Notes: generated by a model from the letters alone, not told the origin. Shown: positions 3-25,893, counted from the stretch's first letter. The stretch: 25,893 bases of DNA from a virus (IMGVR_UViG_3300042879_005094:1-25893), one strand, 5' to 3'. Translations and numbers: made by a program.

Positions 3-3000
3 GGTACAAATGGTACAAACGGCACCTCAGGTACAAATGGTACAAATGGTACAAATGGTACCTCAGGAACCAATGGTACAAATGGTACCAATGGCACCTC
101 AGGAACCAATGGTACAAATGGTACAAACGGTACCTCAGGTACAAATGGCACCAATGGCACCTCAGGTACAAATGGCACCAATGGCACCTCAGGTACAAAT
201 GGCACAAACGGTACCTCAGGTACAAATGGTACAGATGGAACCAATGGTACCTCAGGTACAAATGGTACAGATGGAACCAATGGTACCTCAGGAACCAATG
301 GTACAAACGGTACCTCAGGTACAAATGGTACAGATGGAACCAATGGTACCTCAGGAACCAGAGGCACTTCAGGTACCTCAGGTACAAATGGTACTTCAGG
401 TACTAGAGGTACTTCAGGTACAAATGGTACTTCAGGTACCTCCGGCACAAATGGTACTTCAGGTATAGATGGAAAAAATGGTACAGATGGAACCAATGGT
501 ACCTCAGGAACTAATGGTACCTCAGGTACTAGAGGCACTTCAGGTACTTCAGGTACAAATGGTACCTCAGGAACTAATGGCACCTCAGGTACAAATGGTA
601 CCAATGGCACCTCAGGTACAAATGGTACAAATGGTACCTCAGGAACTAATGGTACCTCAGGAACCAATGGTACAAATGGTACAAATGGTACAAACGGTAC
701 CTCAGGAACTAATGGTACAAATGGTACAAACGGCACCTCAGGTACAAATGGTACAAATGGTACAAATGGTACCTCAGGAACCAATGGTACAAATGGTACA
801 AATGGTACCTCAGGAACCAATGGTACAAATGGTACAAATGGCACCAATGGCACCTCAGGTACAAATGGTACAAATGGTACCTCAGGAACCAATGGTACAA
901 ATGGTACCAATGGCACCTCAGGAACCAATGGTACAAATGGTACAAACGGCACCTCAGGTACAAATGGTACAAATGGTACAAATGGTACCTCAGGAACCAA
1001 TGGTACAAATGGTACCAATGGCACCTCAGGAACCAATGGTACAAATGGTACAAATGGTACAAACGGTACCTCAGGAACTAATGGTACAAATGGTACAAAC
1101 GGCACCTCAGGTACAAATGGTACAAATGGTACAAATGGTACCTCAGGAACCAATGGTACAAATGGTACAAATGGTACCTCAGGAACCAATGGTACAAATG
1201 GTACAAACGGTACCTCAGGTACAAATGGTACTAATGGCACCTCAGGTACAAATGGTACAAATGGTACCTCAGGAACTAATGGTACCTCAGGAACTAATGG
1301 TACCTCAGGAACCAACGGTACAAATGGTACCTCAGGAACCAATGGTACAAATGGTACCAATGGCACCTCAGGAACCAATGGTACAAATGGTACCTCAGGA
1401 ACTAATGGTACCTCAGGAACCAACGGTACAAATGGTACTTCAGGAACTAATGGTACCTCAGGAACCAACGGTACAAACGGTACTTCAGGAACTAATGGTA
1501 CCTCAGGAACTAATGGTACAAATGGTACTTCAGGAACTAATGGTACCTCAGGTACTAGAGGTACTTCAGGAACTAATGGTACAAATGGTACCTCAGGTAC
1601 AAATGGCACCTCAGGAACCAATGGTACAAACGGTACCTCAGGTACAAATGGTACCTCAGGAACTAATGGTACCTCAGGAACTAATGGTACCAATGGTACC
1701 TCAGGAACTAATGGTACCTCAGGTACAAATGGTACAAATGGTACTTCAGGAACTAATGGTACCTCAGGAACTAATGGTACCTCAGGAACCAATGGCACTT
1801 CAGGTACAAATGGTACTTCAGGAACCAACGGTACAAATGGTACTTCAGGTACAAATGGTACCTCAGGAACCAATGGTACAAATGGTACCTCAGGAACTAA
1901 TGGCACCTCAGGAACTAATGGTACAAATGGTACCTCAGGTACAAATGGTACAGATGGAACCAATGGTACCTCAGGAACTAATGGTACCAATGGTACCTCA
2001 GGAACCAATGGTACAAATGGCACCTCAGGTACAAATGGTACAAATGGCACCTCAGGTACAAATGGTACCTCAGGAACTAATGGTACCTCAGGAACTAATG
2101 GTACCAATGGTACCTCAGGAACTAATGGTACCTCAGGTACAAATGGTACAAATGGTACTTCAGGGACTAATGGTACCTCAGGAACTAATGGTACCTCAGG
2201 AACCAATGGCACTTCAGGTACAAATGGTACTTCAGGAACCAACGGTACAAATGGTACTTCAGGTACAAATGGTACCTCAGGAACCAATGGTACAAATGGT
2301 ACCTCAGGAACTAATGGTACCTCAGGAACCAACGGTACAAATGGTACTTCAGGAACCAACGGTACAAATGGTACCTCAGGAACCAATGGCACCTCAGGAA
2401 CTAATGGTACAAATGGTACTTCAGGAACTAATGGTACCTCAGGAACTAATGGTACCTCAGGAACTAATGGTACCTCAGGTACAAATGGCACCTCAGGAAC
2501 CAACGGTACAAACGGTACCTCAGGTACAAATGGTACCTCAGGAACTAATGGCACCTCAGGAACTAATGGTACAAATGGTACTTCAGGAACTAATGGTACC
2601 TCAGGTACTAGAGGTACTTCAGGAACTAATGGTACAAATGGTACCTCAGGTACAAATGGTACCTCAGGAACCAATGGTACAAACGGTACCTCAGGTACAA
2701 ATGGTACCTCAGGAACTAATGGCACCTCAGGAACTAATGGTACCAATGGTACCTCAGGAACTAATGGTACCTCAGGAACTAATGGTACCAATGGTACCTC
2801 AGGAACTAATGGTACCTCAGGAACTAATGGTACCAATGGTACCTCAGGAACTAATGGTACCTCAGGTACAAATGGTACAAATGGTACCTCAGGTACAAAT
2901 GGTACCTCAGGAACCAATGGTACAAACGGTACCTCAGGTACAAATGGTACCTCAGGAACTAATGGCACCTCAGGAACTAATGGTACCAATGGTACCTCAG

Positions 3001-6000
3001 GAACTAATGGTACCTCAGGAACTAATGGTACCAATGGTACCTCAGGAACTAATGGTACCTCAGGTACAAATGGTACAAATGGTACCTCAGGAACCAATGG
3101 CACTTCAGGAACCAATGGTACAAACGGTACCTCAGGTACAAATGGTACCTCAGGAACTAATGGTACCTCAGGAACTAATGGTACAAATGGCACCTCAGGA
3201 ACTAATGGTACCTCAGGAACTAATGGTACCTCAGGAACTAATGGTACAAATGGCACCTCAGGAACTAATGGTACCAATGGTACCTCAGGAACTAATGGTA
3301 CCTCAGGAACCAATGGTACAAACGGTACTTCAGGAACTAATGGTACCTCAGGAACTAATGGTACCTCAGGTACAAATGGTACAAATGGTACTTCAGGAAC
3401 TAACGGTACCTCAGGAACTAATGGTACCAATGGTACCTCAGGAACTAATGGTACCTCAGGAACTAATGGTACAAATGGCACCTCAGGAACTAATGGTACC
3501 AATGGTACCTCAGGAACTAATGGTACCTCAGGTACAAATGGTACAAATGGTACCTCAGGAACCAATGGCACTTCAGGAACCAATGGTACAAACGGTACCT
3601 CAGGTACAAATGGTACCTCAGGAACTAATGGTACCTCAGGAACTAATGGTACAAATGGCACCTCAGGAACTAATGGTACCTCAGGAACTAATGGTACCTC
3701 AGGAACTAATGGTACAAATGGCACCTCAGGAACTAATGGTATCAATGGTACCTCAGGAACCAATGGCACCTCAGGAACTAATGGCACCTCAGGAACTAAT
3801 GGTACCAATGGTACCTCAGGAACTAACGGTACCTCAGGAACTAATGGTACCAATGGTACCTCAGGAACTAATGGTACCTCAGGTACAAATGGTACAAACG
3901 GTACCTCAGGAACTAATGGTACTTCAGGAACCAATGGCACCTCAGGTACAAATGGTACAAACGGTACTTCAGGAACCAATGGCACCTCAGGTACAAATGG
4001 CACCTCAGGAACTAATGGTACAAATGGTACTTCAGGAACTAATGGTACCTCAGGAACTAATGGTACCTCAGGAACTAATGGTACCTCAGGTACAAATGGT
4101 ACAAATGGTACTTCAGGAACTAATGGTACCTCAGGAACTAATGGCACCTCAGGTACAAATGGTACAAACGGTACTTCAGGAACCAATGGCACCTCAGGTA
4201 CAAACGGTACCTCAGGTACAAATGGTACCTCAGGAACCAATGGTACAAACGGTACCTCAGGTACAAATGGTACCTCAGGAACTAATGGCACCTCAGGAAC
4301 TAATGGTACCAATGGTACCTCAGGAACTAACGGTACCTCAGGAACTAATGGTACCAATGGTACCTCAGGAACTAATGGTACCTCAGGTACAAATGGTACA
4401 AACGGTACCTCAGGAACTAATGGTACTTCAGGAACCAATGGCACCTCAGGTACAAATGGTACAAACGGTACTTCAGGAACCAATGGCACCTCAGGTACAA
4501 ATGGCACCTCAGGTACTAGAGGTACCTCAGGAACTAATGGCACCTCAGGAACTAATGGCACCTCAGGAACCAATGGTACAAATGGTACCTCAGGTACAAA
4601 TGGCACCTCAGGTACAAACGGTACCTCAGGTACAAATGGTACCTCAGGAACCAATGGTACAAACGGTACCTCAGGTACAAATGGTACCTCAGGAACTAAT
4701 GGCACCTCAGGAACTAATGGTACCAATGGTACCTCAGGAACTAACGGTACCTCAGGAACTAATGGTACTAATGGTACCTCAGGAACTAATGGCACCTCAG
4801 GTACAAACGGTACCTCAGGTACAAATGGTACCTCAGGAACCAATGGTACAAACGGTACCTCAGGTACAAATGGTACCTCAGGTACTAGAGGTACTTCAGG
4901 AACTAATGGTACAAACGGTACTTCAGGAACTAATGGTACCTCAGGTACAAATGGCACCAATGGTACCTCAGGAACTAACGGTACCTCAGGAACTAATGGT
5001 ACCAATGGTACCTCAGGAACTAATGGTACCTCAGGTACAAATGGTACAAACGGTACTTCAGGAACTAATGGTACCTCAGGTACAAATGGCACCTCAGGTA
5101 CAAATGGTACCTCAGGTACAAATGGTACAAATGGTACCTCAGGAACTAATGGTACCTCAGGAACCAATGGTACAAATGGTACCTCAGGTACAAATGGCAC
5201 CTCAGGAACTAATGGTACCTCAGGAACTAATGGTACAAATGGTACCTCAGGAACTAATGGTACAAATGGCACCTCAGGTACAAATGGTACCTCAGGTACT
5301 AGAGGTACTTCAGGAACTAATGGTACAAACGGTACTTCAGGAACTAATGGTACCTCAGGTACAAATGGCACCTCAGGTACAAATGGTACCTCAGGTACAA
5401 ATGGTACAAATGGTACCTCAGGTACAAATGGCACCTCAGGTACAAATGGTACCTCAGGTACAAATGGTACAAATGGTACCTCAGGAACTAATGGTACCTC
5501 AGGTACTAGAGGTACTTCAGGAACTAATGGTACAAATGGTACCTCAGGTACAAATGGTACAAATGGTACCTCAGGAACTAATGGTACCTCAGGTACTAGA
5601 GGTACTTCAGGAACTAATGGTACAAATGGTACCTCAGGTACAAATGGCACCTCAGGTACAAATGGTACCTCAGGTACAAATGGTACAAATGGTACCTCAG
5701 GTACAAATGGCACCTCAGGCACTAGAGGTACTTCAGGAACCAATGGTACAAACGGTACCTCAGGAACTAATGGTACCTCAGGAACCAATGGCACTTCAGG
5801 TACATCTTCAGTATTTGAATATTGTACTATTCCACAAGATGGATCAGGACAAAAAATAATACCTATTAGTCTTGATGGTTCTACTAACTTACAAACTACT
5901 AAAAATTATGCTAGAATTGAATTTTTTGCCAGTGGATCAAATATACTCCAAGCCACTAGAACCACAGCTGTTTGGTCTAATAGTGGTACATATCCTTTAA

Positions 6001-6161
6001 CATTTTCTTCAGTTGAAGATGTAAGAACACCTGATAATAAACTTATTTATAACACGGCAACAGTAACTGGAAGTTGGCCGTCAAATCATACATTGAACTT
6101 ATTAGTAACTCAGTATAATATTAATGGTATAACATACTGTGCTAGATATGTATTTTTATAA
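3..6161 (+). CDS. Giant collagen-like (Gly-Thr-X)n phage fibre protein, 5' end outside window
   Basis: The frame whose codons start at positions divisible by 3 reads GTNGTNGTS and continues open from base 3 to the TAA at 6159-6161, giving 2052 residues in the window. Residues 1-1935 are 645 collagen-type triplets. The second residue is Thr in all but three that I found (GID at 462, GKN at 471, GIN at 3738), and the third is Asn or Ser with about 11 Arg and 5 Asp. The repeat has no proline. The last 117 residues (5808-6158) are a non-repetitive, beta-rich C-terminal domain with Cys codons at 5823 and 6138, probably a trimerising or receptor-binding head. Frame choice rests on three things. Glycine falls every third residue. 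Base changes fall mostly on third codon positions (GGT/GGC/GGA, ACA/ACC/ACT). The competing frame 1 is cut by TAG at 466-468 exactly where this frame reads GIDGKNG. Family knowledge: phage collagen-like repeats form trimeric fibres. The start codon lies upstream of the window, so total length is unknown. Confidence 0.93.
660..1207 (+). repeat. Segmental duplication inside the collagen repeat, offset 369 bp
   Basis: Bases 660-838 and 1029-1207 are identical by eye over 179 bp, including rare choices such as AAC and GGC codons at the same places. The offset is 41 units of 9 bp. Confidence 0.85.
1635..2317 (+). repeat. Segmental duplication inside the collagen repeat, offset 414 bp
   Basis: Bases 1635-1903 and 2049-2317 match over 269 bp with one difference that I can see, GGA at 1749 against GGG at 2163 (silent). 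The offset is 46 units of 9 bp. Another 414-bp spacing relates the GTR blocks at 4881 and 5295. Confidence 0.85.
3012..3741 (+). repeat. Segmental duplication inside the collagen repeat, offset 468 bp
   Basis: Bases 3012-3273 and 3480-3741 are identical by eye over 262 bp. The match ends where the second copy has ATC instead of ACC, producing the only GIN triplet. The offset is 52 units of 9 bp. Confidence 0.85.
5439..5647 (+). repeat. 90-bp tandem duplication near the 3' end of the collagen repeat
   Basis: Bases 5439-5557 match bases 5529-5647, a period of 90 bp (10 triplets) repeated about 2.3 times. Each copy carries one GTR-GTS pair (starting at 5502 and 5592). Direct adjacency suggests a recent unequal exchange or slippage event. 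Confidence 0.85.
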
Positions 6162-6169
6162 TTAAAATC

Positions 6170-6805
6170 ATGGGAAATACTAGTGTTTTTAATAAAATAG
6201 GATTTATATCTAAAGCAGCTAATGTAATATTAGCTGGAGATGTAGCTGAGAGTACTCTTGGTAATACTATGAATAATATCTCTAGTATTGGGGTTGTAGA
6301 GGATGGTGTGTATCCTGTTTTACCTCTTGAATTTGCTTTTTATAAAGAAATAACTGTAACATCTAATCAAACATATTATACATTATTTACTCATAATGTT
6401 ACTTGGAGTTCTACAATAAGTAAATTTCCCCCATATAATGCTATTCAAGTTTACCTATCAGCCAGAGCTATTTCAGGGGCTGCTATAGGCATTAATGGTA
6501 GAGCTGGGGTATATGGTATAAGAAGTATAATACCTTATGGGACAGGAGTAAGCTCAGGGAATGCTCTTTATAATAACACCAATAAAAGAACTTATATATG
6601 GACTTATAATAGAGTAGGAATCACAGGGGGAGGTGGTGGTGAAGCAAATTTTTCTTTATTTTCTATGGCTAGCGAGGATCCGTTAATAGGATTAGTTCCT
6701 TCTACAACAGGTGATGTTTTAACATATAGTTTTGTTATAAAAACAAATAACGTTCAGAATATAACAGGAACTTGGGCTGTACAAGGATTAGCTACTTTAT
6801 TGTAA
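6170..6805 (+). CDS. Hypothetical virion protein, probable fibre-associated, 211 aa
   Basis: This gene starts 8 bp after the giant fibre gene, with an A/T-rich leader and no Shine-Dalgarno sequence. I do not recognise a family. The protein has a short N-terminal part (residues 1-50) followed by a Ser/Thr/Tyr-rich, probably beta-stranded body, with a glycine run (GGGGG) near residue 155. It has no signal peptide or membrane segment. Its C-terminus (TWAVQGLATLL) has the same flavour as the ends of the next two proteins and of the collagen fibre, each of which finishes in a short hydrophobic beta-like stretch. Position directly after a fibre gene suggests a virion-surface or receptor-binding role. 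This is inferred from context only. Confidence 0.75.
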   Translation: MGNTSVFNKIGFISKAANVILAGDVAESTLGNTMNNISSIGVVEDGVYPVLPLEFAFYKEITVTSNQTYYTLFTHNVTWSSTISKFPPYNAIQVYLSARAISGAAIGINGRAGVYGIRSIIPYGTGVSSGNALYNNTNKRTYIWTYNRVGITGGGGGEANFSLFSMASEDPLIGLVPSTTGDVLTYSFVIKTNNVQNITGTWAVQGLATLL

Positions 6806-6811
6806 ATAATT

Positions 6812-7306
6812 ATGGTAACTTTAAATAACATAAAATCTTTTCCACAATTAAGTTATATACCTACAGGATCATTTGTTGATACAGCAGCTGGAGAGAATGT
6901 CTATCAGCCTATAAAAGGAGCTTTTGTTGTACATACTAGATCTGGTGGATTAAATTCATCAACAACCAATTTATTTGATATACCTATAAACACATATTCT
7001 AGTAATTTTGCTTATAGATATACTAATGCTGAGATATTAATAGTTAATGCTAGTACAGTAACTGGTGCCTCTGGAGTTACTAATACTATAGCTAGGTTAT
7101 TTTGTTCTCGAAATAACATAGGAACTAGCTCAACCACAACTTCAGACATATATTTAAGTGGTGGAACCGCTGCTTATACTGATACTTGGAATTCTTTTTT
7201 AATATATGATACTATTAATTTTAAATTTATACTAAGACTAGTTGTAAGTAGTACTACAACAATAACTAATGTAGGTTTATATAAAGGAACATATAAAATT
7301 TTTTAA
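6812..7306 (+). CDS. Hypothetical virion protein, beta-rich, 164 aa
   Basis: The start is 6 bp after the previous stop. No family is recognised. The N-terminus reads FPQLSYIPTGSFVDT, which resembles the N-terminus of the following protein (YPQIAFSSISGGDYVDS), so the two may be distant paralogues. The rest is Ser/Thr/Asn-rich with alternating hydrophobic residues, typical of small beta-sandwich virion proteins. It has no catalytic motif, signal peptide or transmembrane helix. It sits in the same tight gene string as the fibre genes and is probably co-expressed with them. Confidence 0.75.
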   Translation: MVTLNNIKSFPQLSYIPTGSFVDTAAGENVYQPIKGAFVVHTRSGGLNSSTTNLFDIPINTYSSNFAYRYTNAEILIVNASTVTGASGVTNTIARLFCSRNNIGTSSTTTSDIYLSGGTAAYTDTWNSFLIYDTINFKFILRLVVSSTTTITNVGLYKGTYKIF

Positions 7307-7308
7307 AA

Positions 7309-7863
7309 ATGGCTGTACTTTTACCTCGTAATTCCTCTAATTCATATCCTCAAATAGCATTCTCAAGTATTAGTGGAGGAGATTATGTTGATAGTAATGG
7401 TAATATTTTAGGTCAAATCAGACAAGAAGCATTCTATAATTCTTTTACTATAAGTACATCATCAACAATTAGAACATATCTTGTTTATGATTTAACAAAT
7501 TACCCTGGTTGTAATGGTATTATAGTTAACGCATCTTTAGAGTCTAATTTCCAGGGCTCACCTACAGCACCTAACAATGTAACTTTTAATTTTAACCATT
7601 ATTTTACAAGAACTATTGTATCAGGATCAGGAACAAACTCAAATTTGGCTTCAAATACCCTTAATATTGATAATGCTTCTGTAAATTTAAATACAGGAGC
7701 ATCCCAAGAAAATAGTCAATTTTTCCCTACAAACTTAGCTGGTCTTAATCCATTAGTTAGTAATGTAGGCGCTTATATATATTCTAATCAGATAGTTCAA
7801 TTTAGATTAAATTTTAAAGCTAATGTTACTTATTATATAAAAGGTATAACTACTTTTATATAA
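7309..7863 (+). CDS. Hypothetical virion protein, beta-rich, 184 aa
   Basis: Only two bases separate its ATG from the previous stop. The first 30 residues (with YPQIAFSS and YVDSNGN) resemble the start of the preceding 164-aa protein, hinting at duplication and divergence. The body is rich in Asn, Ser and Thr with beta-type alternation. No enzyme motif is visible. As the third of three small proteins after the giant fibre gene, it is plausibly an adhesin or fibre-tip accessory, but the function is unknown. It is followed by a 31-bp gap that contains a TATTTATA box. Confidence 0.75.
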   Translation: MAVLLPRNSSNSYPQIAFSSISGGDYVDSNGNILGQIRQEAFYNSFTISTSSTIRTYLVYDLTNYPGCNGIIVNASLESNFQGSPTAPNNVTFNFNHYFTRTIVSGSGTNSNLASNTLNIDNASVNLNTGASQENSQFFPTNLAGLNPLVSNVGAYIYSNQIVQFRLNFKANVTYYIKGITTFI

Positions 7864-7867
7864 AATA

Positions 7868-7875
7868 TATTTATA
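7868..7875 (+). promoter_or_regulatory. TATTTATA box, candidate late promoter element
   Basis: ATATTTATAAT lies in the 31-bp gap, 19 bases before the ATG at 7895. It is one of seven copies in intergenic gaps of this window. Confidence 0.45.
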
Positions 7876-7894
7876 ATATATAACCCATAAAAAT

Positions 7895-8983
7895 ATGCAA
7901 ATATTTGGAAATGCTCTTGGAATTATTGTTACAGACTCAGCTTCTTTATCAGAGGGATCAGCTTCTTTAAACCAAACTTTACCAGTTTTAAATTTTATTT
8001 TTGATTCAGATTTTGCTAATTCTAACGATTCAGGATCAATAGCTGCTATTGAAGCTTCTATAACAACTTCTTCTAATAATGGAGTAGCTGGAAATTTAAT
8101 ATTTAGAGTATCAGATACCTCTAACTTAACTTCTTCAGGGTCTGAAGTGGCTAGAATGTTTAATAGTGGGGGGGAGGCTAGGGTAGGTATAGGTTTTACT
8201 GATCCTTTAGAAAAACCTTTAACAACTTTAGATGTCAAATCTCAAATAAACTCAGCGGAAGGTACTCAAATCTTTTTAAGAAGTAGTAGAACTACTTTTG
8301 GAGCCCAAGTTGGAGATTCAGCTGGGGCTATTTCTTTTTTAGTAGATAGCGCCAGTTTTACAACAGAAAGTAAAGACCAATTCCAAGCTTCAGGTTCTAT
8401 AGCTGTAATTGATAGTGAAGTCACAACTGTTGATAAAAAAGGAGTTACAGGGGTTTTAAAATTTAATTATTACTCAGTTTCTGATTATATTACTAGAACA
8501 TTATTTACTATTGGAGATTTAGGTGGAGCTGATTATGTAGTTCAATCAACCGCTGATCGTACTGAATTAAAACCTAGTTCATATACTTTTCCTAACTCAT
8601 ATCTTACTATAGAATATGGATCAGGAAGTTATCTTGAAGAAAATAAAGTAGAACTAACTTTTATTACAGCTTCCATAACTAGTGATACTGAAATTACTAT
8701 AGGAGCTGCTTTTATTGGTGGTACTAGTAATGTTGGGTATTATAGTCTTATAATAGAATATAGTTTAATTAGTGGAGCTTCTAGTCCTTTAACAACAGCT
8801 GGGAGGACAGGTCAGTTTATGGCTGTTACTAATGGAGGTATAGTACATGATTTTACAGATTTTTCTACTCCTTCTATAGGTAATGAACCTTCCCCTCCAA
8901 TACTTTCTTGTAGTAGTGCTGGTAATTTGGTTATAAAAAGTGGAAGTGGTTATACTTTTAGAGGATATATCAAAAGGTTTTAA
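7895..8983 (+). CDS. Probable tail fibre protein with internal repeat, 362 aa
   Basis: Two similar segments can be seen. Residues about 35-73 (FDSDF ... SGSIAAIEA ... GVAGNLIF) and about 148-193 (VDSASF ... SGSIAVIDS ... GVTGVLKF) share spacing and sequence. Between them, at residues 96-115, is RVGIGFTDP ... TTLDV, a form of the GIGT-x-P-x-x-x-LDV motif seen in many phage tail fibres and other trimeric adhesins just before or after beta-helical parts. The C-terminal 150 residues are Ser/Gly-rich and beta-like, without a recognised chaperone domain. The fibre role comes from these motifs and from neighbouring fibre genes. The receptor is unknown. Confidence 0.7.
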   Translation: MQIFGNALGIIVTDSASLSEGSASLNQTLPVLNFIFDSDFANSNDSGSIAAIEASITTSSNNGVAGNLIFRVSDTSNLTSSGSEVARMFNSGGEARVGIGFTDPLEKPLTTLDVKSQINSAEGTQIFLRSSRTTFGAQVGDSAGAISFLVDSASFTTESKDQFQASGSIAVIDSEVTTVDKKGVTGVLKFNYYSVSDYITRTLFTIGDLGGADYVVQSTADRTELKPSSYTFPNSYLTIEYGSGSYLEENKVELTFITASITSDTEITIGAAFIGGTSNVGYYSLIIEYSLISGASSPLTTAGRTGQFMAVTNGGIVHDFTDFSTPSIGNEPSPPILSCSSAGNLVIKSGSGYTFRGYIKRF

Positions 8984-8990
8984 ACTTTAA

Positions 8991-8998
8991 TATTTATA
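8991..8998 (+). promoter_or_regulatory. TATTTATA box, candidate late promoter element
   Basis: TATTTATA lies 7 bases after the stop of the preceding gene and 38 bases before the ATG at 9037, in a 53-bp gap. It is the copy farthest from its downstream start. Confidence 0.45.
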
Positions 8999-9024
8999 GT
9001 CACATCCCTTTTGGACAGTGAAAA

Positions 9025-9030
9025 AAGGAA
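9025..9030 (+). promoter_or_regulatory. Shine-Dalgarno-like AAGGAA before the fibre gene
   Basis: AAGGAA ends 6 bases before the ATG at 9037. It is unusual here because most other starts in the window have only A/T-rich leaders. It supports the chosen start. Confidence 0.45.
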
Positions 9031-9036
9031 ATTAAC

Positions 9037-10431
9037 ATGGCGAACGAATTTATAGCTAGAAAAGGACTTATAGCTCTTGAATCCTCTCAAATAACAGGTA
9101 GCTTATTTGTTAGTGGTACTTCATTTTTTACAGGATCTGTAGATATCTCAGGGGGTATTGAAAATACTCATTTTATTGATTTCTCAACAACAGCTACCCC
9201 AGCATACTTAGAAGGTAGAGTTAATTGGATAGATGATACTAAAACATTAGCTATTGATACAGAACTTAATGGTTTCTCTATTGAAGTAGGTCATCAAAAT
9301 GTTATTAGAGTAAGAAACGAAACTGGTACTACCATATCAAGAGGTAGAGTAGTTTATTTAAGCGGTTCTTCAGGTAATAGACCACTTATCTATACTTCAA
9401 GTTTTGAAATAGACCCAACATCAGCAGGTACTGTAGGTTTAGTAGCAGCTGATATTAGCACTTCTAACAATGGTTATGTTATATCCAATGGTTTAATTAG
9501 AGATATAAACACAACTGCTTATACAGCGGGTGCTGTATTATATCTTTCTTCAAGCGGTCAACTTTCAACAACAGCACCTGTAGCACCTCTACATGCTGTT
9601 AGGATGGGTAAGGTTATAACATCCGCAGTATCTGGTATAATCCACGTAGATGTTGATAACGGTTATGAAATCGGTGAGTTACATGATGTAGTTGATAATA
9701 CAACAAGTACAACATATGGTTCGCTATTAGTTAAATCAGGTAGTGTATGGAAAGATGGTTATCAACTAACTGGTTCATATGGTTTAACTGGTAGCTTAAG
9801 TGCGACATCATTTACTGGTTCATTACAAGGAACTGCTTCTTGGGCATTAAATGTTGTTGGGGGAGGGGGAGGAGTCACAATTAATAATAATGTTGACAAT
9901 TATTTAATTACTGCTACAGGTACTGCTAATACTTTAAATGGTGAATCAGGTTTAACTTTTGATGGTACCACATTAACAGTAGCTAATAATGCTGTAATAA
10001 CAGCTATTGATGTAAGAAACGACCCAAGTACAACTATTGGTCAGTATGCTCCTGGCGCTCATATGGGTAGGGATTGGCCTGCCGCTGGTGGACCTGCTTT
10101 AACAGCTGGTAATATAGTTTATTTTTCAGGCAGTTCACAATGGACTAATGCTCAAGCTAATGCTACAGGTAGTAGTACCAGGATACTAGGTGTTGTGACA
10201 GATAATGCAGATCCAAATGAAATAGTTCTTCAAGGTACAGTTACAATTAATACAGACTTAGCTACATATCAAGTAGGCCAACCTGTATATTTAAGTCCAT
10301 TAACAGCTGGTAAAGTAACTAATGTACCCCCTTCATCTTCAGGTCATGTAGCTAGATATGTGGGATGGGTTGTTGATACTAGTAGAGATCAAATATATTT
10401 TAATCCTGATTTTACATATATTCAATTATAA
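9037..10431 (+). CDS. Tail fibre/virion structural protein with duplicated beta module, 464 aa
   Basis: The N-terminus (ANEFIARKGLIALESSQITG) and the central LTGSLSATSFTGSLQG segment (residues 250-265) are of a type I associate with structural or fibre proteins of uncultured aquatic phages. A module appears twice, at residues about 88-205 and 355-460. Each copy runs through a VVYLSG or IVYFSG strand, a GLVAAD or LGVVTDN strand, a VLYLSSSGQL or PVYLSPLTAGKV strand, and a final IHVDV or IYFNP strand. A poly-glycine hinge (residues 275-279) and a TLNGESGLTFDG strand lie between them. No enzymatic motif is visible. It has the best ribosome site in the window and its own upstream TATTTATA box, consistent with strong late expression. 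Confidence 0.75.
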   Translation: MANEFIARKGLIALESSQITGSLFVSGTSFFTGSVDISGGIENTHFIDFSTTATPAYLEGRVNWIDDTKTLAIDTELNGFSIEVGHQNVIRVRNETGTTISRGRVVYLSGSSGNRPLIYTSSFEIDPTSAGTVGLVAADISTSNNGYVISNGLIRDINTTAYTAGAVLYLSSSGQLSTTAPVAPLHAVRMGKVITSAVSGIIHVDVDNGYEIGELHDVVDNTTSTTYGSLLVKSGSVWKDGYQLTGSYGLTGSLSATSFTGSLQGTASWALNVVGGGGGVTINNNVDNYLITATGTANTLNGESGLTFDGTTLTVANNAVITAIDVRNDPSTTIGQYAPGAHMGRDWPAAGGPALTAGNIVYFSGSSQWTNAQANATGSSTRILGVVTDNADPNEIVLQGTVTINTDLATYQVGQPVYLSPLTAGKVTNVPPSSSGHVARYVGWVVDTSRDQIYFNPDFTYIQL

Positions 10432-10435
10432 AGTT

Positions 10436-11683
10436 ATGCCTCAAATAAACGGAATAGAAACAACAGCTATAGCTGGTTTAGGACAGATAGGAGTAACACC
10501 TGCTACAATTTATCCTTCAGGAGGGTTAGTTGTTAACTCAAATGTACTTAGGTCAGGATCACTCACTAATAGTGGGTATATTTATGGAACAGCCCCATTT
10601 TATAATAGACCATATGATATGGCTAGTGCTTCATTAGGTACTAGTACTTGGACTAAAATAGTAGGTAATAGCGTGGCTATTTACCTTTTGTCTTCAAGTG
10701 GTGAATTGTATTCTATGGGTAGTAGTACCTTTTATACAAGTACAGGTCAAACTTATAGATTATCTAAAGTAACTACTGGGTCTAGTGGGTGGACAGATAT
10801 AGCAGCTGGTAGTAATTTTGCTTTAGGAATTTGTGATAGTAAATTATTTGGTATAGGACTTAATGGTAATGGTCAACTTGGCAATGGAACTACTACCGCT
10901 ATTCTTACTAATTTTGCTGTTGTAAACAGTAATCCTTGGTGGACCCGAGTATCATGTGGTGAAGAAATGGCTATGGCTATGAGTGGTTCAGGTGGTTCAG
11001 GTGTATTATTCGCCGCTGGTAGAAATTTTGAAGGAAGAACAGGTCAAAATACAAGTACAGGCAACACTATAACTTGGACCCGAGTAGTCAATCATACAAG
11101 TAGTATATTTACTGACTTTAGCTGTGGTAATGACTTTACATTAGCCATCTCAGGGAGTAACATATTTGGTACAGGTGATGCTTCTGCTTTTGTATTTGGA
11201 AATAATAGTGAAACTGATTTATTAACCTTTACCTTAGTATCAGGTAGTGGTATTTGGAGTAGAGTATTTGCTTTTAATGCTTTCAGTAAAGCTATAGATA
11301 CTAATGGTTCTCAATATCATTGTGGGCAACAAGCTTATTCTAGGGGAGATGGTAGCATAGCTAACCTTAATACTTGGACTCGTTTAAACACTGCCTCAGC
11401 TGAATTTTCAGGTAGTTGGACAAATTTTTATGCTAACAACATAGGTAGTACAACTTATGGAGTTATAGGAGTAAATAGGAATAGACCTTTCTACATAGGA
11501 CAAAGAGGTACCACTACAGATTGGTTCCCAAATACAACTTGGACTGATTATACTACAGCTTCAAATGAGGCTACTTGGAAACCATTTGTAAGTACTAGTG
11601 TTAATGTAAGTTGTAGTGCTGCTGGTTTTTGGGGCAGTGCATTTGAACCAACATTGTTTATACAATTAACCCCAATATCATGA
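10436..11683 (+). CDS. RCC1/BLIP-II-like beta-propeller virion protein, 415 aa
   Basis: The protein contains six to seven repeats of roughly 45-55 residues, each opening with a tryptophan or phenylalanine strand and a small-residue turn. They begin near residues 72 (WTKIVGNS), 119 (WTDIAAGSNFAL), 169 (WTRVSCGEEMAM), 224 (FTDFSCGNDFTLAI), 274 (WSRVFAF), 328 (WTNFYANN) and 380. The second has the classic RCC1 signature FGIGLNGNGQLGNG at residues 138-151. Family knowledge: RCC1 and BLIP-II repeats fold as a seven-bladed propeller that binds proteins or other ligands. A longer frame begins at 10358 inside the previous gene, but the ATG at 10436, four bases after that gene's stop, gives a normal N-terminus (MPQINGIETT). 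In this fibre cluster it is most likely a fibre tip or receptor-binding head. Confidence 0.78.
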   Translation: MPQINGIETTAIAGLGQIGVTPATIYPSGGLVVNSNVLRSGSLTNSGYIYGTAPFYNRPYDMASASLGTSTWTKIVGNSVAIYLLSSSGELYSMGSSTFYTSTGQTYRLSKVTTGSSGWTDIAAGSNFALGICDSKLFGIGLNGNGQLGNGTTTAILTNFAVVNSNPWWTRVSCGEEMAMAMSGSGGSGVLFAAGRNFEGRTGQNTSTGNTITWTRVVNHTSSIFTDFSCGNDFTLAISGSNIFGTGDASAFVFGNNSETDLLTFTLVSGSGIWSRVFAFNAFSKAIDTNGSQYHCGQQAYSRGDGSIANLNTWTRLNTASAEFSGSWTNFYANNIGSTTYGVIGVNRNRPFYIGQRGTTTDWFPNTTWTDYTTASNEATWKPFVSTSVNVSCSAAGFWGSAFEPTLFIQLTPIS

Positions 11684-11928
11684 TACATTTTGTTAAAATA
11701 AACACTGAGGAAGAATTATTAGAAAATTGGCTTGATCCCGCTGTTCCTCATATGTCAATGTGTTTTCAACAAACTAAACTAGATCAATGTATAAAAAAAG
11801 GTGATTATATTTATGCTAGTTATGAACCCTTAGAATTAACCGAAACTATGATTTGGGAAACTGTTAATGGCCCGGTTATAGTACCCCCAGGTATTTACTT
11901 TATCCACCCTAATTTTGAAGAGTTTTAA
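11680..11928 (+). CDS. Small hypothetical protein, 82 aa
   Basis: The ATG overlaps the stop of the propeller gene (ATGA), so the two are probably translationally coupled. The protein is acidic, with an N-terminal MIHFVKINTEEELLENW and a C-terminal PVIVPPGIYFIHPNF. No known domain is recognised. Its size and coupling to a fibre gene would fit a fibre-assembly helper, but nothing in the sequence shows that directly. A 45-bp A/T-rich gap follows, with no terminator and no TATTTATA box. Confidence 0.7.
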   Translation: MIHFVKINTEEELLENWLDPAVPHMSMCFQQTKLDQCIKKGDYIYASYEPLELTETMIWETVNGPVIVPPGIYFIHPNFEEF

Positions 11929-11973: not shown

Positions 11974-13860
11974 ATGTCTATAGCTTTATCAATTAATTGT
12001 GAAGGGCTAGGTGATGTTATATCTTCTATACCTACTATTAGAAAAATATCTCAAGCTTATAACACACCTATAACTGTTTTTAGTTTATATCCTGAACTTT
12101 TTGAGAATCATCCTTGTGTAAGTAAAACCTTACATATAAATGATCCCAAAGAAGGATATGAGATATTAAATACTTTTTCTCACATAGCTGGAAAAGAACA
12201 TAGTTTAGAAGGAAATGTTGTTCAATTCAAACATTCCCATATTGATATTAGACAATATCATGCTCTTTCTTTAGGTTTTTCTTTACTACCTAAAGAAATG
12301 GAAACTGATCTTTATATTGAAGAAGATTGGGAAGTAGATTTTAAAGATTATATTATAATACATCCTACCCATACTTGGTCTTCTAGAACTTGGTCCTTTG
12401 AGAATTGGCAAAATTTAATTTATAAACTAAATCAACTTAATATTCCTGTTATAGCTATAGGTAAAAATACAGTTGAACATGGGCATGGAGAAGCCTATAA
12501 TAAAAAAGTTATGGAAATTGATATTCCATATGGTTTAAATTTAATGAATCATCCTGAGAGTAACTTTTCTAAGCTAAGAGGACTTTTTAAAAAAGCAAGA
12601 TGTATTATAACTATGGATTCAGGTATACTTCACTTAGCAGGAACAACTGATATTCATATAATTCAATTAGGATCTTCTATTAATCCTAAATTAAGAGCTC
12701 CTTATAGAAAAGGATCTCAAAACTATAAATATAATTATATTAAAGGATCTTGTGATTTATACTGTGCTTCCAATCTTAGATATAACATAAAAGAACATAA
12801 TTCTATACAAGGTGCTTCACCCTTAGACAATTGTTTAGAAAATAAACCTACATTTGAATGTCATTCAAAAATAGAAGATGTTATCAATGTTGTAAAAAAA
12901 TTACCTATGACTAAACAAAAATTAATGTATATAACTCCTCATTTGTCAACAGGAGGAATGCCTCAATATGTTTTAAGACAAATAAAAGAATTTAAAGCTT
13001 TTTTTGATATATCTATTATAGAATATGAGTTATATTCTGATACTTATATAGTTCAAAGAGAACAAATTAAAAATTTAATACCCTCTGAAAATTTTTTTTC
13101 TTTAGGGAAAGGTACTAATAATAAACCTGAGGTACTTGATATTATTCAGCAGATAAAACCTGATATTATTCATTTTCAAGAAGTCCCAGACAATTTTATA
13201 CATGAAAGTATTTTAAAAAAATTATTTAATCTAAATAATAGACCATATTTTATAGTTACTACTCACTCTAGTTATACTAACCCTTCTAAGTTACAATTTA
13301 TACCTGATAAGTTTATTTTGGTATCTGAATGGAGTAAAGAAAAATTTTCTAAGTTAACAACCCCATGTGAGGTATGGGAATATCCTATTGATAATTTAAC
13401 CCCAGAAAAAGAAAAATACCAAAAAGAATTAGGTTTAAATCCTAATTATAAACATATAATTAATGTTGGACTTTTTACTCAAGGAAAAAATCAAGGTGAA
13501 CTATTCCAATTAGCTAAAGAATTAGAAGAATATCCATTTTATTTTCATTTTATAGGTAATCAGGCTGAGAATTTTTATGATTATTGGGGTCCTTTAATGG
13601 AAAATAAACCTGATAATTGTATTATATGGGGAGAAAGAGATGATGTTTATAAATTTATCCAAGCCGCTGATTTATTCTTTTTTAGTTCTAAATTAGAATT
13701 AAATCCTTTAGTTATTAAAGAAGCTTTATCTTATAAACTGCCTATTTTTATGAGAAAATTAAACACTTATTTAGATTATTATGATAATAATTTTTTAGTC
13801 ACTTATATAGACAATGATCTTGAAAAAACTAAACAACTTTTAATATCCCATTTAAAATGA
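11974..13860 (+). CDS. Two-domain glycosyltransferase, GT9-like then GT4-like, 628 aa
   Basis: Residues 1-305 look like a GT9 (heptosyltransferase-type) domain. They have the nucleotide-loop start GLGDVISSIPTIRK (11-24), an IIIHPTHTWSSRTW strand and turn (127-140), and TMDSGILHLAG (213-223), the family's DSG-x-x-H-x-A signature. Four cysteines follow (260, 264, 287, 296), as in a metal-binding finger. Residues 315-628 look like a GT4 (GT-B fold) domain, with PHLSTGGMPQYV (322-333), TTHSS (429-433), INVGLFTQGKNQGEL (496-510) and the donor-site E-x7-E pair at E575 and E583. Both domains keep their signature residues, so two linked transfers are plausible. The donor and acceptor are not shown by the sequence. 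The stop overlaps the next gene by ATGA, so the two glycosyltransferases are coupled. Alternative roles are host surface modification or nucleotide modification. I favour virion glycosylation from context. Confidence 0.85.
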   Translation: MSIALSINCEGLGDVISSIPTIRKISQAYNTPITVFSLYPELFENHPCVSKTLHINDPKEGYEILNTFSHIAGKEHSLEGNVVQFKHSHIDIRQYHALSLGFSLLPKEMETDLYIEEDWEVDFKDYIIIHPTHTWSSRTWSFENWQNLIYKLNQLNIPVIAIGKNTVEHGHGEAYNKKVMEIDIPYGLNLMNHPESNFSKLRGLFKKARCIITMDSGILHLAGTTDIHIIQLGSSINPKLRAPYRKGSQNYKYNYIKGSCDLYCASNLRYNIKEHNSIQGASPLDNCLENKPTFECHSKIEDVINVVKKLPMTKQKLMYITPHLSTGGMPQYVLRQIKEFKAFFDISIIEYELYSDTYIVQREQIKNLIPSENFFSLGKGTNNKPEVLDIIQQIKPDIIHFQEVPDNFIHESILKKLFNLNNRPYFIVTTHSSYTNPSKLQFIPDKFILVSEWSKEKFSKLTTPCEVWEYPIDNLTPEKEKYQKELGLNPNYKHIINVGLFTQGKNQGELFQLAKELEEYPFYFHFIGNQAENFYDYWGPLMENKPDNCIIWGERDDVYKFIQAADLFFFSSKLELNPLVIKEALSYKLPIFMRKLNTYLDYYDNNFLVTYIDNDLEKTKQLLISHLK

Positions 13861-15026
13861 TCTATAATAATTTAGAAAAAACAGCTAAGTATTTAGAAAA
13901 AATTTTTTTTAATGTAAACTTTATAATGGGGGCCCAATTAGATATTGATGGTCCTTCTTCTAGTACTTATCAAGTTAAATTTTTTAATCATAAAACTAAT
14001 GAGTTAGTTTATGAAACTTTTTTAAAGTCTGGGATGTGGTCTAAACCTTCTATTCAATATTATATTCAATGGAGAATAGAAGTATGGGAAAATAATGAAT
14101 TAAAATTTGAACATATACTTAATTGTGAGAATAAAAAAATATATATTCATTTAAGTAGTAAAGCTTTAGGTGATACTATAGCTTGGTTTCCTTATATAGA
14201 AGAATTTAGAAAAGAACATAATTGTGAAATAATATGTTCAACTTTTTATAATGATTGGTTTATAGAAAAATATCCTGAGATTCAATTTATTAATCCTGGA
14301 GAGATGGTTTATAATATATATGCTATGTATGATATAGGTTGGTTTTATACTGAAGAGGGTGGTATTGATTTAACTAAACATCCCAAAGATGTTAAATCAT
14401 ATCCTCTTCAAAAAACAGCTTCTGATATTTTAGGTTTACCTTATAAAGAAATTAAACCTAATTTAAATATAAAAATTTTAGAACCTTTCATAACTGAACC
14501 TTATGTTATTATAGCACCACATGGTTCTAAACATGCAGCTTATTGGAATTACCCTGGGGGTTGGCAGGTTGTTATAGACTGGTTAAATGATCAAGGGTAT
14601 AAAGTAGTTATGTTATCTAGAGAATCTTTAGGAGATACTTGGCATGATTCTAAATTAGGAGGAACTTTAACAGGAGTAATAGATAAAACAGGAAATAATA
14701 GTTTTCAAGAAGTTTTTAACATTATCAACAATTCTGAACTACTAATAGGTTTGGGTAGTGGACTAACCTGGATAAGTTGGGCCTTAAACAAACCTACAAT
14801 ATTAATCTCAGGATTTAGTGATCCATACACAGAAATGCAAAATTGTATTCGCTTATCAGCTTCATCTAATGTTTGTGGAGGTTGTTTTAATACTCATAAG
14901 TTAGATGCTGGGGATTGGGATTGGTGCCCCCATCATAAAAATACAGAACGTCATTTTGAATGTTCTAAGTCTATAAAACCTGAGCAGGTAGTAAAATCTC
15001 TCAAAGAAGTTTTACATATTTATTAA
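13857..15026 (+). CDS. Autotransporter-type strand-loop-strand O-heptosyltransferase (TibC/Aah family), 389 aa
   Basis: The family enzymes transfer a sugar, heptose in TibC and Aah, to Ser/Thr hydroxyls of repeat-rich surface proteins. Residues 20-90 form the N-terminal beta domain of this family (VNFIMGAQLDIDGPSS, then GMWSKPSIQYYIQW and NCENKK). Residues 95-330 are a GT9-like GT-B core: SSKALGDTIAWFPYIEEF (100-117, with the conserved GD at 105-106), ICSTFYNDWFIEKYPEI, an APHGSKHAAYWNYPGGW acceptor or donor loop (220-236), and LIGLGSGLTWISWAL (296-310). Residues 338-372 hold the diagnostic cysteine finger C340-x2-C343-x13-C357-x11-C369 with GDWDWCPHHKNTERHFECS, matching the iron-binding finger known for TibC. 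The start is chosen because its ATG overlaps the preceding glycosyltransferase stop. The family call is strong. The sugar used and the target protein are inferred. Confidence 0.9.
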   Translation: MIYNNLEKTAKYLEKIFFNVNFIMGAQLDIDGPSSSTYQVKFFNHKTNELVYETFLKSGMWSKPSIQYYIQWRIEVWENNELKFEHILNCENKKIYIHLSSKALGDTIAWFPYIEEFRKEHNCEIICSTFYNDWFIEKYPEIQFINPGEMVYNIYAMYDIGWFYTEEGGIDLTKHPKDVKSYPLQKTASDILGLPYKEIKPNLNIKILEPFITEPYVIIAPHGSKHAAYWNYPGGWQVVIDWLNDQGYKVVMLSRESLGDTWHDSKLGGTLTGVIDKTGNNSFQEVFNIINNSELLIGLGSGLTWISWALNKPTILISGFSDPYTEMQNCIRLSASSNVCGGCFNTHKLDAGDWDWCPHHKNTERHFECSKSIKPEQVVKSLKEVLHIY

Positions 15027-15328: not shown

Positions 15329-17059
15329 ATGGCAGAAGCATTATTATCACCTGGTGTATTTACTAGAGAAAATGACCAGTCTTTTATTCAACAACAACCA
15401 GTTCAAGCTGGGGCGGCTATCATAGGTCCTACAGTTAAAGGTCCTGTTGAAGAACCTACAGTTGTCACTTCTTATAGTGATTTTACAAATAAATTTGGTA
15501 GTGTATTTACTAGTGCTAGTAATACTTACACTTATTTTACGTCTATAGCAGCTTATAATTATTTTAATAATGGTGGAGATAGTTTATTAGTCACTCGTGT
15601 TGTTAGTGGAGCTTTTACCTCAGCCACAAGCACAGCTATAAGCTCAAGTGACCAACCAAGTTCACAACCTGCTTTTGTTCTAAAAACAATTGCTAAAGGA
15701 TCTAATCAAAATAGTATCTCATCACAAGATAGTGATGGAGCCTTAGCTAGTGGTTCCTCAGACAACTTAAGATGGGAAATTTCTCAAACTGATTCTAATA
15801 TAGGAACTTTTACTCTTTTAATTAGAAGAGGAGATGATATAACTGATGAAAAAGCAGTTTTAGAAACTTGGGCTAATTTATCACTAGATCCTTATGCTCC
15901 TAATTATATATCTAAAGTTATTGGAGATCAAGTTAAAACTAAAGTTACAGATAGTGCTGGTAATGTTTATCTTCAATATTCTGGGTCTTATCCAAATCAA
16001 AGTAGATACATTTATATATCTTCTGTAAAGAACGCCACACCTAATTATTTTGATAATAGTGGTAACCCTAAAACTCAATTTACAGGCTCATTACCTTCTA
16101 CAGGCAGTGGTTCTTTTGAAAATGCTACTGGAGAATTATTTGGGGCTGGGGCTAGATTTTATGAGACAATAGCTGCTGCTACCAATATTCAAGGATTAGA
16201 TGCTTATGTATATACTGCTTCCTTAGATATATTATCAAATAAGGATGAATATCAATTCAACACCTTAGTAATGCCTGGGATAATTAGTGATCTTGGAGGC
16301 ACATCAGCTACAACTATCAATAAAGCCCTAACTATGGCTATTGAAAGAGGTGATTTCTTAACAGTTATAGACATGGAAACTTATGGAGCTACAGTTGCTA
16401 ATGTAACATCTGAAGCCCAAACCTATAACAATAGTTACACCGCTACATATTGGCCTTGGTGCCAAGTGGCTGATCCTGATACTGGACAGTTAGTATGGGT
16501 CCCTGCCTCAACACTAATCCCAGCTGTCTATGCTTTTAATGACAGAAATGCTGAAGCTTGGTTCGCCCCTGCTGGTTTAAATAGGGGAAGTTTACCAACA
16601 GTGATCAGAACTGAAAGAACTTTAACTAAATCAGATAGAGATACTTTATATTCTAGTAATGTTAATCCTATAGCTACTTTCCCTAATAGTGGTGTGGTAG
16701 TTTTTGGACAAAAAACATTACAAAAGAAAGCAAGTGCTCTTGATCGGGTCAATGTTAGAAGATTATTAATTGAGTTAAAAAATTATATAGGACAATTAGC
16801 TCAAAATTTAGTCTTTGAACAAAATACTACAGCTACAAGAAATGCCTTCTTATCTCAAGTTAACCCATATCTTGAAAGTATTCAACAAAGACAAGGTCTT
16901 TACGCCTTTAGAGTAATTATGGATGATAGTAACAACACACCTGATGTTATAGATAGAAATCAATTAGTAGGTCAAATATTCCTACAACCCACAAGAACAG
17001 CTGAGTTTATAGTACTTGATTTTAATGTTCTTCCAACAGGAGCTGAGTTTCCATCTTAA
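15329..17059 (+). CDS. Contractile tail sheath protein (T4 gp18-like), 576 aa
   Basis: The sheath polymerises around the tail tube and contracts to drive it through the host envelope. The N-terminus carries the family opening LLSPGVFTRENDQS (residues 5-18), followed by AAIIGPTVKGPVEEPTVV and the YSDFTNKFGS strand, typical of the conserved sheath core. The middle part (about 90-300) is the variable surface region. The C-terminal third carries LNRGSLP ... RTERTLTKSDRDTLY and, from residue 459, FGQKTLQKKASALDRVNVRR ... NLVFEQNTTATRNAF ... YAFRVIMDD. These are the signatures of the C-terminal sheath domain that interlocks with neighbours. Length is slightly below T4 gp18 (659 aa). It is followed directly by the tube gene. 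Confidence 0.93.
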   Translation: MAEALLSPGVFTRENDQSFIQQQPVQAGAAIIGPTVKGPVEEPTVVTSYSDFTNKFGSVFTSASNTYTYFTSIAAYNYFNNGGDSLLVTRVVSGAFTSATSTAISSSDQPSSQPAFVLKTIAKGSNQNSISSQDSDGALASGSSDNLRWEISQTDSNIGTFTLLIRRGDDITDEKAVLETWANLSLDPYAPNYISKVIGDQVKTKVTDSAGNVYLQYSGSYPNQSRYIYISSVKNATPNYFDNSGNPKTQFTGSLPSTGSGSFENATGELFGAGARFYETIAAATNIQGLDAYVYTASLDILSNKDEYQFNTLVMPGIISDLGGTSATTINKALTMAIERGDFLTVIDMETYGATVANVTSEAQTYNNSYTATYWPWCQVADPDTGQLVWVPASTLIPAVYAFNDRNAEAWFAPAGLNRGSLPTVIRTERTLTKSDRDTLYSSNVNPIATFPNSGVVVFGQKTLQKKASALDRVNVRRLLIELKNYIGQLAQNLVFEQNTTATRNAFLSQVNPYLESIQQRQGLYAFRVIMDDSNNTPDVIDRNQLVGQIFLQPTRTAEFIVLDFNVLPTGAEFPS

Positions 17060-24684: not shown

Positions 24685-25893
24685 TGGCTAACATTTTACA
24701 AGAGTCTTTTTCTCCTTATGTAAAAAGACAAATCAATATAAGACAACAAAAATTAGGAGCTTTAACTCGAGATAATAATACTTTAGTATTTACAACAAGT
24801 AATGCTCCTTTTATTAAACTTACTTCATCGATAAATGTGACAGCTAATAAATGTCGAGAAATAGGTTTACCTGATAGCTTTTCAGGGAATAATTTAGCTG
24901 AAAAATTTGTTTTATTTGGAGGAACAGTTGAAGAAGACCATTCAGGTTCACCTATTTTAAAAAGTGGTGTTGCTTCTAGTTATAATGATTTTAATAATTC
25001 ATCTTATGGATTTTTAACTACTAGTGATTATGGATTAATTCCAATGCCTGGTATTACTAGTATTGATGTTAAATCTTTAAATAGAGGTTCTTTAAGAGAA
25101 TGTACTATAAATATAACTTGCCATAGTAAACAACAATTTCTTATTATTGAAACTTTATTTTTAAGATTAAAATATAGTTTTTTATTAGAATGGGGACATT
25201 CTGTTTATTTTAAAAATGATGGAACTCTTTCAACTGAAAATTTTTCTAATAGTAGTTTATTTTTAGGAGGAGGTGATGGTGATGTTAGTGATCAAAATTA
25301 TATTCTTAAAACTTTAGAAACTTCTAGAAACCAATCAAATGGTAATTATGATGCTTTTTTAGGATATGTTAAAAATTTTAATTGGACTCTTCGTCCTGAT
25401 GGTGGTTATGATATAACTGTTTCAGGTATAACATTTGGGGATGTTATAGAATCTCTCAAAATGAATGTTTTAAGATATGATGATGCTGATGTTGAAGAGC
25501 AAAATGAAGAAGAAGCTAATTTAGAAGGCCCTCCAATAGAAAAAGATAAAAATAGAACTACATTAAACCAAATATTTTATGCCCTTAAAAAACTTTCAGA
25601 AGAATCAGATGGACTTTTAACAGAAGAAAGTTTTGTTATAATAGATGAAGTTACATGTTCTAAGTTAAAAGAACTTATACCTTCTCTCCCAGATGTTAAT
25701 TTAGCTAAATATGCTGGGAGTAAGTTTATAAATAATGGTGATGCTCCTATAACACAACCTCAACCTCAACCTCAACCTCAACCTCAACCTAAAACTCCCT
25801 CACAAACCCAAGTTCAAGAAGAAGGTTTTTTTAGTTCTGTTGGGAATTTTATTAGTGAGACTGTTGAAGCTGTTGGAGAGTTTGTTAGTGAGG
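24684..25893 (+). CDS. Probable baseplate structural protein, 3' end outside window
   Basis: The start ATG overlaps the preceding stop by one base (TAATG), and the frame stays open to the window end, giving 403 residues: MANILQESFSPYVKRQIN at the N-terminus, a beta-rich body with GLIPMPGITSIDVKSLNRGS near residues 117-136, and NWTLRPDGGYDITVSGITFG near 234-253. The GITSIDVKSLNRGS ... ITC and DGGYDITVSG patterns look like strands of a phage baseplate domain, but I do not recognise the family. Acidic residues cluster near 265-285. A (Gln-Pro)6 linker (358-369) joins this to a second part beginning EEGFFSSVGNFISE, probably helical. Position after gp53 supports a baseplate role. Confidence 0.75.
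   Translation, partial: MANILQESFSPYVKRQINIRQQKLGALTRDNNTLVFTTSNAPFIKLTSSINVTANKCREIGLPDSFSGNNLAEKFVLFGGTVEEDHSGSPILKSGVASSYNDFNNSSYGFLTTSDYGLIPMPGITSIDVKSLNRGSLRECTINITCHSKQQFLIIETLFLRLKYSFLLEWGHSVYFKNDGTLSTENFSNSSLFLGGGDGDVSDQNYILKTLETSRNQSNGNYDAFLGYVKNFNWTLRPDGGYDITVSGITFGDVIESLKMNVLRYDDADVEEQNEEEANLEGPPIEKDKNRTTLNQIFYALKKLSEESDGLLTEESFVIIDEVTCSKLKELIPSLPDVNLAKYAGSKFINNGDAPITQPQPQPQPQPQPKTPSQTQVQEEGFFSSVGNFISETVEAVGEFVSE
25755..25790 (+). repeat. Six tandem CAACCT hexamers coding (Gln-Pro)6
   Basis: CAACCT is repeated six times without variation in the frame of the last gene. It makes a Gln-Pro linker at residues 358-369. Perfect hexamers are prone to length change without frame loss. Confidence 0.93.

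Follow-up and report, generated by a model that had tools for sequence, protein, structure and literature searches.

A divergent TibC-type glycosyltransferase encoded with a proline-free collagen-like fibre in a T4-like phage

The DNA stretch IMGVR_UViG_3300042879_005094:1-25893 (25.9 kb, referred to as the window) is a fragment of a T4-like phage and carries the tail sheath, tail tube and tape measure genes. A giant collagen-like fibre and two glycosyltransferase genes are encoded on one strand of the window, in one late block. The product of the second transferase gene (13857-15026) belongs to the TibC sequence and fold family, and it is best explained as a divergent O-glycosyltransferase of the TibC type, with collagen-like Gly-(Thr/Ser)-Y repeats as its putative natural acceptors. 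The probability that this enzyme modifies the phage's own fibre is put at roughly 0.7, and the chance that the added sugar would be heptose is about even.

The TibC-like enzyme and the collagen-like fibre

As the preliminary description of this DNA had proposed from a beta domain, a GD motif and a four-cysteine finger, the 13857-15026 protein falls within the TibC/Aah family. It matches the TIGR04414.1 model (hepto_Aah_TibC) with 291.8 bits (E = 7e-87), above the curated cut-off of 200, and its sequence matches the TibC structures PDB 4rap/4rb4 with E = 1e-51. The AlphaFold model of the protein (pLDDT 88.3, pTM 0.87) retrieves TibC in the structure search with a TM of 0.85 (E = 2e-33), and it superposes on TibC over 360 residues (model range 15-389) with a Z of 39.2 and an rmsd of 2.3-2.4. 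The predicted fold consists of an N-terminal beta domain and a GT-B catalytic domain, as in TibC, where the match of PF21129 (TibC_1st) to the N-terminal domain is sub-threshold. Identity as a lipopolysaccharide (LPS) heptosyltransferase was rejected, as the corresponding values are 292 vs 33 bits and a Z of 39 vs 17-19 for WaaC/WaaF.

Key residues were compared in an alignment of 100 homologs, consisting of 83 viral and 17 cellular sequences. The Asp of the GD motif (D106) and Trp305 (W305) are kept in the window protein and in every aligned homolog, and the finger residues Cys340/343/357/369 align with Cys339/342/358/370 of TibC.

The repeat of the fibre comprises 1934 residues, with 645 Gly, 642 Thr, 374 Asn, 253 Ser and no Pro, and forms a long uninterrupted run of 645 Gly-X-Y triplets, 372 of which are GTN and 254 GTS. 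The X position is practically all Thr, and the Y position is Asn (58%) or Ser (39%). Only 18 of the 1934 residues are charged; the repeat is thus as proline-free, charge-poor and rich in Thr (more than 640) as first described. The preliminary description also argued that sugar would stabilise the triple helix, by analogy with Riftia cuticle collagen and BclA. Prokaryotic collagens, BclA included, carry Thr in the Y position (PMC8968730; PMC7157674). This argument is weaker than stated because Thr is in X here, with Asn or Ser in Y, and solubility, shielding from proteases or antibodies, and adhesion are equally possible benefits of a fibre glycan. For the C-terminal part of 118 residues, no relative was found among the TibC loci. 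Separately, the repeat contains 373 Asn-Gly-Ser/Thr sequons (window 3-5807), which are possible N-glycosylation sites if the host has a suitable, unrelated enzyme.

Co-occurrence of the enzyme and the repeat in phages and cells

IMG/VR contains many TibC-like genes (554 candidate loci), and Ser/Thr-rich, Pro-free Gly-X-Y open reading frames (ORFs) are present in many TibC loci with enough flanking DNA. An in-locus test gave 7/113 vs 0/98 (p = 0.016); it is weak because the loci are short, and a whole-contig search was used in its place. In the latter, phage contigs of 55-385 kb were picked by DNA pattern alone and then searched whole for TibC. The (GT[S/T])4 sample consisted of 25 of the 37 contigs longer than 50 kb, mostly the larger ones, where the TibC-bearing L284 and L286 were among those left out. 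TibC was found in 18/25 of these contigs vs 1/25 contigs picked by (GPX)4 (p = 8e-7), one of the 18 matches being at 193 bits, slightly below the cut-off of 200. When the comparison was restricted to 55-90 kb, the counts were 6/9 and 0/20, respectively. Since related phages are non-independent samples, the p values here and below serve as guides only.

A control anchored on the tail sheath gene compared the same genome region within one phage group, for loci with 7.5 kb or more of upstream DNA. The fibre is present in 5/7 TibC-positive loci vs 0/13 TibC-negative loci (p = 0.0014). In a second TibC group of 15 contigs, most of which have no repeat closer than 10 kb, the repeat lies elsewhere in 9/15, and the reversed-pattern control gave 0/15. 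The order of collagen fibre, GT4 genes, TibC and sheath is found in L025 and L043. In L048, L050 and L073, a GT4-TibC fusion shares a short block with a collagen ORF of 1500-2570 residues. Peptidase_S74 is a chaperone typical of phage fibres, and the fibres of L048 and L073 carry both Pfam Collagen and Peptidase_S74, which identifies them as phage fibres. Among named phage records, both TibC and the repeat are present in Microcystis phage Mel-JY01 and a 735-kb megaphage. As a side observation, the comparable place in a TibC-negative relative (L162:130-1835) is occupied by a collagen-like GISGLS repeat, with Ile/Leu in X and Ser in Y.

The pairing is not restricted to phages but is shared by bacteria and an archaeon. 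The profile search yielded 17 cellular loci, including Methylococcaceae, Polaromonas, other Gammaproteobacteria, Bacteroidota, Schekmanbacteria, Rickettsiaceae and the archaeon Nitrosotalea. In most of the 16 non-canonical loci, a small ORF with (Gly-Thr/Ser-Ser)n runs lies close to TibC. Such ORFs, found next to divergent TibC genes in bacteria and one archaeon (L089-L096, L099-L104, L545-L550), often begin with a signal-peptide- or lipoprotein-like segment.

Among 251 genomes of one order, 9 carry a divergent TibC (303-327 bits) and 5 a canonical TibC (654-663 bits). The repeat pattern is present in 8/9 of the divergent-TibC genomes vs 19/242 of the others, with the 5 canonical-TibC genomes included in the latter (p = 5e-8); some of these 19 repeats lie in frames with TGA and are therefore not coding. 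In an out-of-sample check, for which 7 divergent and 7 canonical loci were fetched afterwards, 6/7 divergent loci had a repeat ORF at a distance of 106-921 bp from TibC, whereas the repeat was absent in 7/7 canonical loci. Most canonical loci have a very long ORF beside TibC, of the expected autotransporter type. Such a double dissociation speaks for collagen-like repeats, and not autotransporters, as the partners of the divergent subfamily. The co-occurrence survey that the preliminary description had suggested comes out in its favour. Chance co-occurrence was rejected by the reversed-pattern, sheath-anchored, Gly-Pro-X and canonical-TibC controls.

Partner transferase, sugar donor and proposed mechanism

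The coupling of a GT9-GT4 fusion to the TibC-like gene holds as first described. The ORFs 11974-13860 and 13857-15026 are both open and overlap by 4 nt (ATGA), and the first product matches PF01075 (GT9, residues 124-249) and PF00534 (GT4, residues 479-606). Where a viral locus extends far enough upstream, a relative of the GT4 half (35-66%) lies immediately before the TibC gene in almost all cases. GT4 and TibC form one protein in L048 and L050, and by reading frame in L073. The GT9 half shows a weak match to heptosyltransferase I models, and its homologs among the TibC loci are found only in L002 and L003, the nearest relatives of the window.

A sister clade has, in 20 loci, two genes directly after TibC (e.g. 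L055:11149-12265). Within NCBIfam, each of them best matches one half of HldE: heptose-7-phosphate kinase and heptose-1-phosphate adenylyltransferase, respectively. These neighbours hint at ADP-heptose as the donor. The first enzyme of ADP-heptose synthesis is GmhA, which was searched in 20 phage records and is present in one alone, the 636-kb megaphage LR756504 (L179:1402-1971; 251 bits, cut-off 209), 27 kb from its TibC. Heptose genes are absent from the window, so the donor would have to come from the host or from the rest of the phage genome.

The proposed process is as follows. The fibre and both transferases would be made late in infection from one strand. The TibC-like enzyme would put the first sugar, most likely heptose from ADP-heptose, on many Thr and Ser residues of the fibre, probably on unfolded chains before or during trimerisation, and the co-translated GT9-GT4 protein would probably extend it. 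The outcome would be a giant virion fibre coated with short glycans, which may provide a shield, solubility, stiffness or adhesion. Support for the action on the fibre, as claimed in the preliminary description, is indirect and comes from the co-occurrence, the adjacency in cellular genomes, the GT4 fusion and pairing, and the HldE-like genes. On a broader scale, the odds are evenly balanced that Pro-free Gly-(Thr/Ser)-(Ser/Asn) collagens of bacteria, of an archaeon and of numerous large phages are O-heptosylated by a widespread TibC-like subfamily that had gone unrecognised, where phages like that of the window would build giant sugar-coated virion fibres and some lineages would bring part of their own ADP-heptose synthesis.

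If the proposal is true, it supplies an enzyme-acceptor pair for a large unexplained class of proteins, the Pro-free (Gly-Thr-Ser)n repeats of phages and bacteria, and means that phages use relatives of bacterial adhesin heptosyltransferases to glycosylate giant fibres of their own. Phage transferases near tail genes would then be read as virion decoration and not as a change of host LPS. The pair offers a direct test of how collagen-like chains that lack proline and hydroxyproline remain stable and soluble, and it may serve as a tool for glycosylated collagen-like materials. A search of the open-access literature, which excludes most subscription papers, yielded no paper that connects TibC-type enzymes to collagen-like proteins.

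Alternative explanations and related systems

Several observations weigh against the action of the enzyme on the fibre. Although the fibre lies in the late block in which the preliminary description placed it, and on the same strand, it is located at 3-6161, outside the region then described (11974-15026), with 7.7 kb between its end and the TibC-like gene and several ORFs (6170-11928) in between. No TibC was found in 7/25 of the Gly-Thr-Ser contigs and no such repeat in 6/15 of the second-group TibC contigs, where the contigs may be fragments. Among loci picked by (GTN)3, the repeat type of the window itself, TibC was found in 0/45 usable short loci, where about 3 are expected at the GTS rate, too few to decide. 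The 636-kb phage LR756504 has TibC but no [ST][ST] repeat, and the HldE-like matches are under their curated cut-offs, including that of TIGR02199. Known TibC acceptors are beta-helix strand-loop-strand repeats, the shape of which is unlike a collagen chain. Finally, two residues of TibC differ in the window protein, where the phosphate-binding Lys230 is Ala228, which the preliminary description missed, and the adenine-contact Arg286 is Val286.

It is improbable that the transferases instead remodel the LPS or capsule of the host, stopping superinfection or freeing progeny, and lie near the fibre because the transferase and fibre genes all fall in the variable host-interaction region of T4-like phages. 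Transferases in the host-recognition regions of pelagimyophages are usually read in this manner (PMC7029224), and GT9 enzymes, to which half of the fusion protein belongs, are classically LPS heptosyltransferases. However, the match of the enzyme to TibC far exceeds that to the LPS enzymes, as described above, and a shared region leaves unexplained both the rarity of TibC in Gly-Pro-X collagen phages and the bacterial TibC genes that adjoin small secreted (GTS)n proteins.

An equally small chance is given to the possibility that the enzyme acts on another virion protein, such as the 6170-11928 products or the 83-residue coiled-coil protein, with the fibre as a bystander. The genes of these proteins are closer to the enzyme gene than the fibre is, and the coiled-coil gene comes after TibC in many loci. 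However, a comparison of homologs found few or no relatives of the 6170-11928 ORFs among the other TibC loci, and it is the Ser/Thr repeat that recurs in phages, bacteria and an archaeon.

In TibC, alanine at any one of Asp110, Arg286, Trp305 and Lys230 abolishes or largely diminishes the activity (PMC4358343). Arg286 is variable throughout the divergent family, including the cellular members, where it is Arg in 7/17. Lys230 is retained in 96/100 homologs, and the exceptions, L002, L003, L011 and L012, are from the subclade of the window, which has the loop motif SKHAAYW vs SAHAKYW elsewhere. All four, and the window protein (Lys225), carry Lys at the TibC-227 position, which no other homolog does. 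Since this Lys is gained exactly where Lys230 is lost, a compensating move rather than decay is suggested, and the phosphate-binding lysine of a still functional enzyme may have been relocated. The least likely alternative is that the chemistry was lost or changed in this lineage, with the GT9 half performing the first transfer or with a donor other than ADP-heptose, which would fit the Lys/Ala swap in the whole subclade, the variable Arg286 and the restriction of the GT9 half to the closest relatives, but agrees poorly with the relocated Lys and with the conserved catalytic Asp, Trp305, four Cys and overall sequence.

With two of the tested functional residues changed and a partner other than an autotransporter, the protein is not filed with the bacterial autotransporter heptosyltransferases (BAHT), a class marked by an ADP-heptose donor and a dodecameric ring. 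Of the TibC/Aah heptosyltransferase first claimed, the family and fold stand. The likeness to TibC/Aah covers an above-cut-off sequence, the full-length predicted fold, the catalytic Asp, Trp305, the four-Cys finger and a Ser/Thr-rich repeat protein encoded nearby as a partner (PMC4358343). In contrast, the window and divergent enzymes score about 290-330 bits vs about 655 for canonical members (in one order), and the window enzyme, with Lys230 moved and Arg286 lost, is phage-borne, GT4-paired or -fused in its family, and accompanied by a collagen-like partner, no autotransporter having been found in the window.

In Clostridioides difficile, the SgtA gene lies next to that of BclA3, and SgtA transfers GlcNAc (N-acetylglucosamine) from UDP-GlcNAc onto Thr (and Ser) of the collagen repeat (PMC7157674). 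The TibC-like enzyme, with its genomic pairing to collagen-like repeats, would work in a similar way without being of this kind, but SgtA is of another enzyme family and takes UDP-GlcNAc, and BclA3 has GPT repeats with Thr in Y and is on a spore surface, not a virus. Mimivirus encodes both collagens and its own glycosylating enzymes (L230, R699), which produce hydroxylysine-linked Gal/Glc (PMC9546862). It resembles what is proposed for the window's phage, as a virus that encodes collagens together with the enzymes that glycosylate them, and differs in infecting amoebae, in its enzyme families and in its hydroxylysine-linked Gal/Glc. We know of no TibC-type enzyme reported for the glycosylation of mycobacteriophage virions. 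In these tailed phages, the phage's own particle is glycosylated, according to the account of Freeman 2023 as cited in PMC12619734; the sites in that account are the C-termini of capsid and tail-tube proteins, and no collagen-like fibre is involved there.

Table 1. Positions of the features discussed, counted from the first nucleotide of the window.
Feature	Position	Strand	Evidence
Giant collagen-like fibre ORF, proposed acceptor, 5'-open at contig start	3-6161	+	645 Gly-X-Y triplets, no Pro
Fibre C-terminal non-repetitive part, 118 aa (putative trimerisation/tip domain)	5805-6158	+	translation
Intervening ORFs, probably fibre-tip or decoration proteins, including RCC1-like propeller	6170-11928	+	
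GT9-GT4 fusion protein, 628 aa	11974-13860	+	PF01075 and PF00534 above cut-off
GT9 N-terminal half	11974-12900	+	PF01075, 42 bits
GT4 C-terminal half, TibC's conserved partner in phages	12901-13857	+	homologs in 59/100 TibC loci
TibC-like glycosyltransferase, 389 aa	13857-15026	+	TIGR04414, 291.8 bits; fold Z 39.2 to TibC
TibC-like N-terminal beta domain, residues 15-92	13899-14132	+	AlphaFold strands; structural alignment to TibC begins at residue 15
Catalytic-base Asp106 (= TibC Asp110), GD motif	14172-14174	+	Asp in 100/100 aligned homologs
Donor-phosphate loop GSKHAAYWN, Lys at TibC-227 not TibC-230 position	14523-14549	+	alignment of 100 homologs
Four-cysteine (iron) finger, putative, Cys340/343/357/369	14874-14963	+	Cys in 83/83 viral, 16/17 cellular homologs
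Small coiled-coil protein, 83 aa	15028-15279	+	homologs in 23 loci; relatives come after TibC in many
Tail sheath, anchor of control comparison	15329-17059	+	phrog_23 tail sheath, 4e-76

As shown in Table 1, the transferase genes are followed by the tail sheath gene, the closest annotated relative of which is that of Flavobacterium phage immuto (56%), followed by Microcystis phage Mel-JY01. The RCC1-like beta-propeller protein of the late block is encoded at 10436-11683, where the start is probably 10436 and not 10358. Small coiled-coil proteins with a KYGxGxIxLxxG-like C-terminal motif flank the genes of the fibre and the transferases, in some cases more than once, as at L025:6713-6988 and L055:7532-7786 and 12313-12699 in addition to the one in the window. 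At 25755-25790 of the window, six perfect copies of CAACCT encode a Gln-Pro run in the last ORF.

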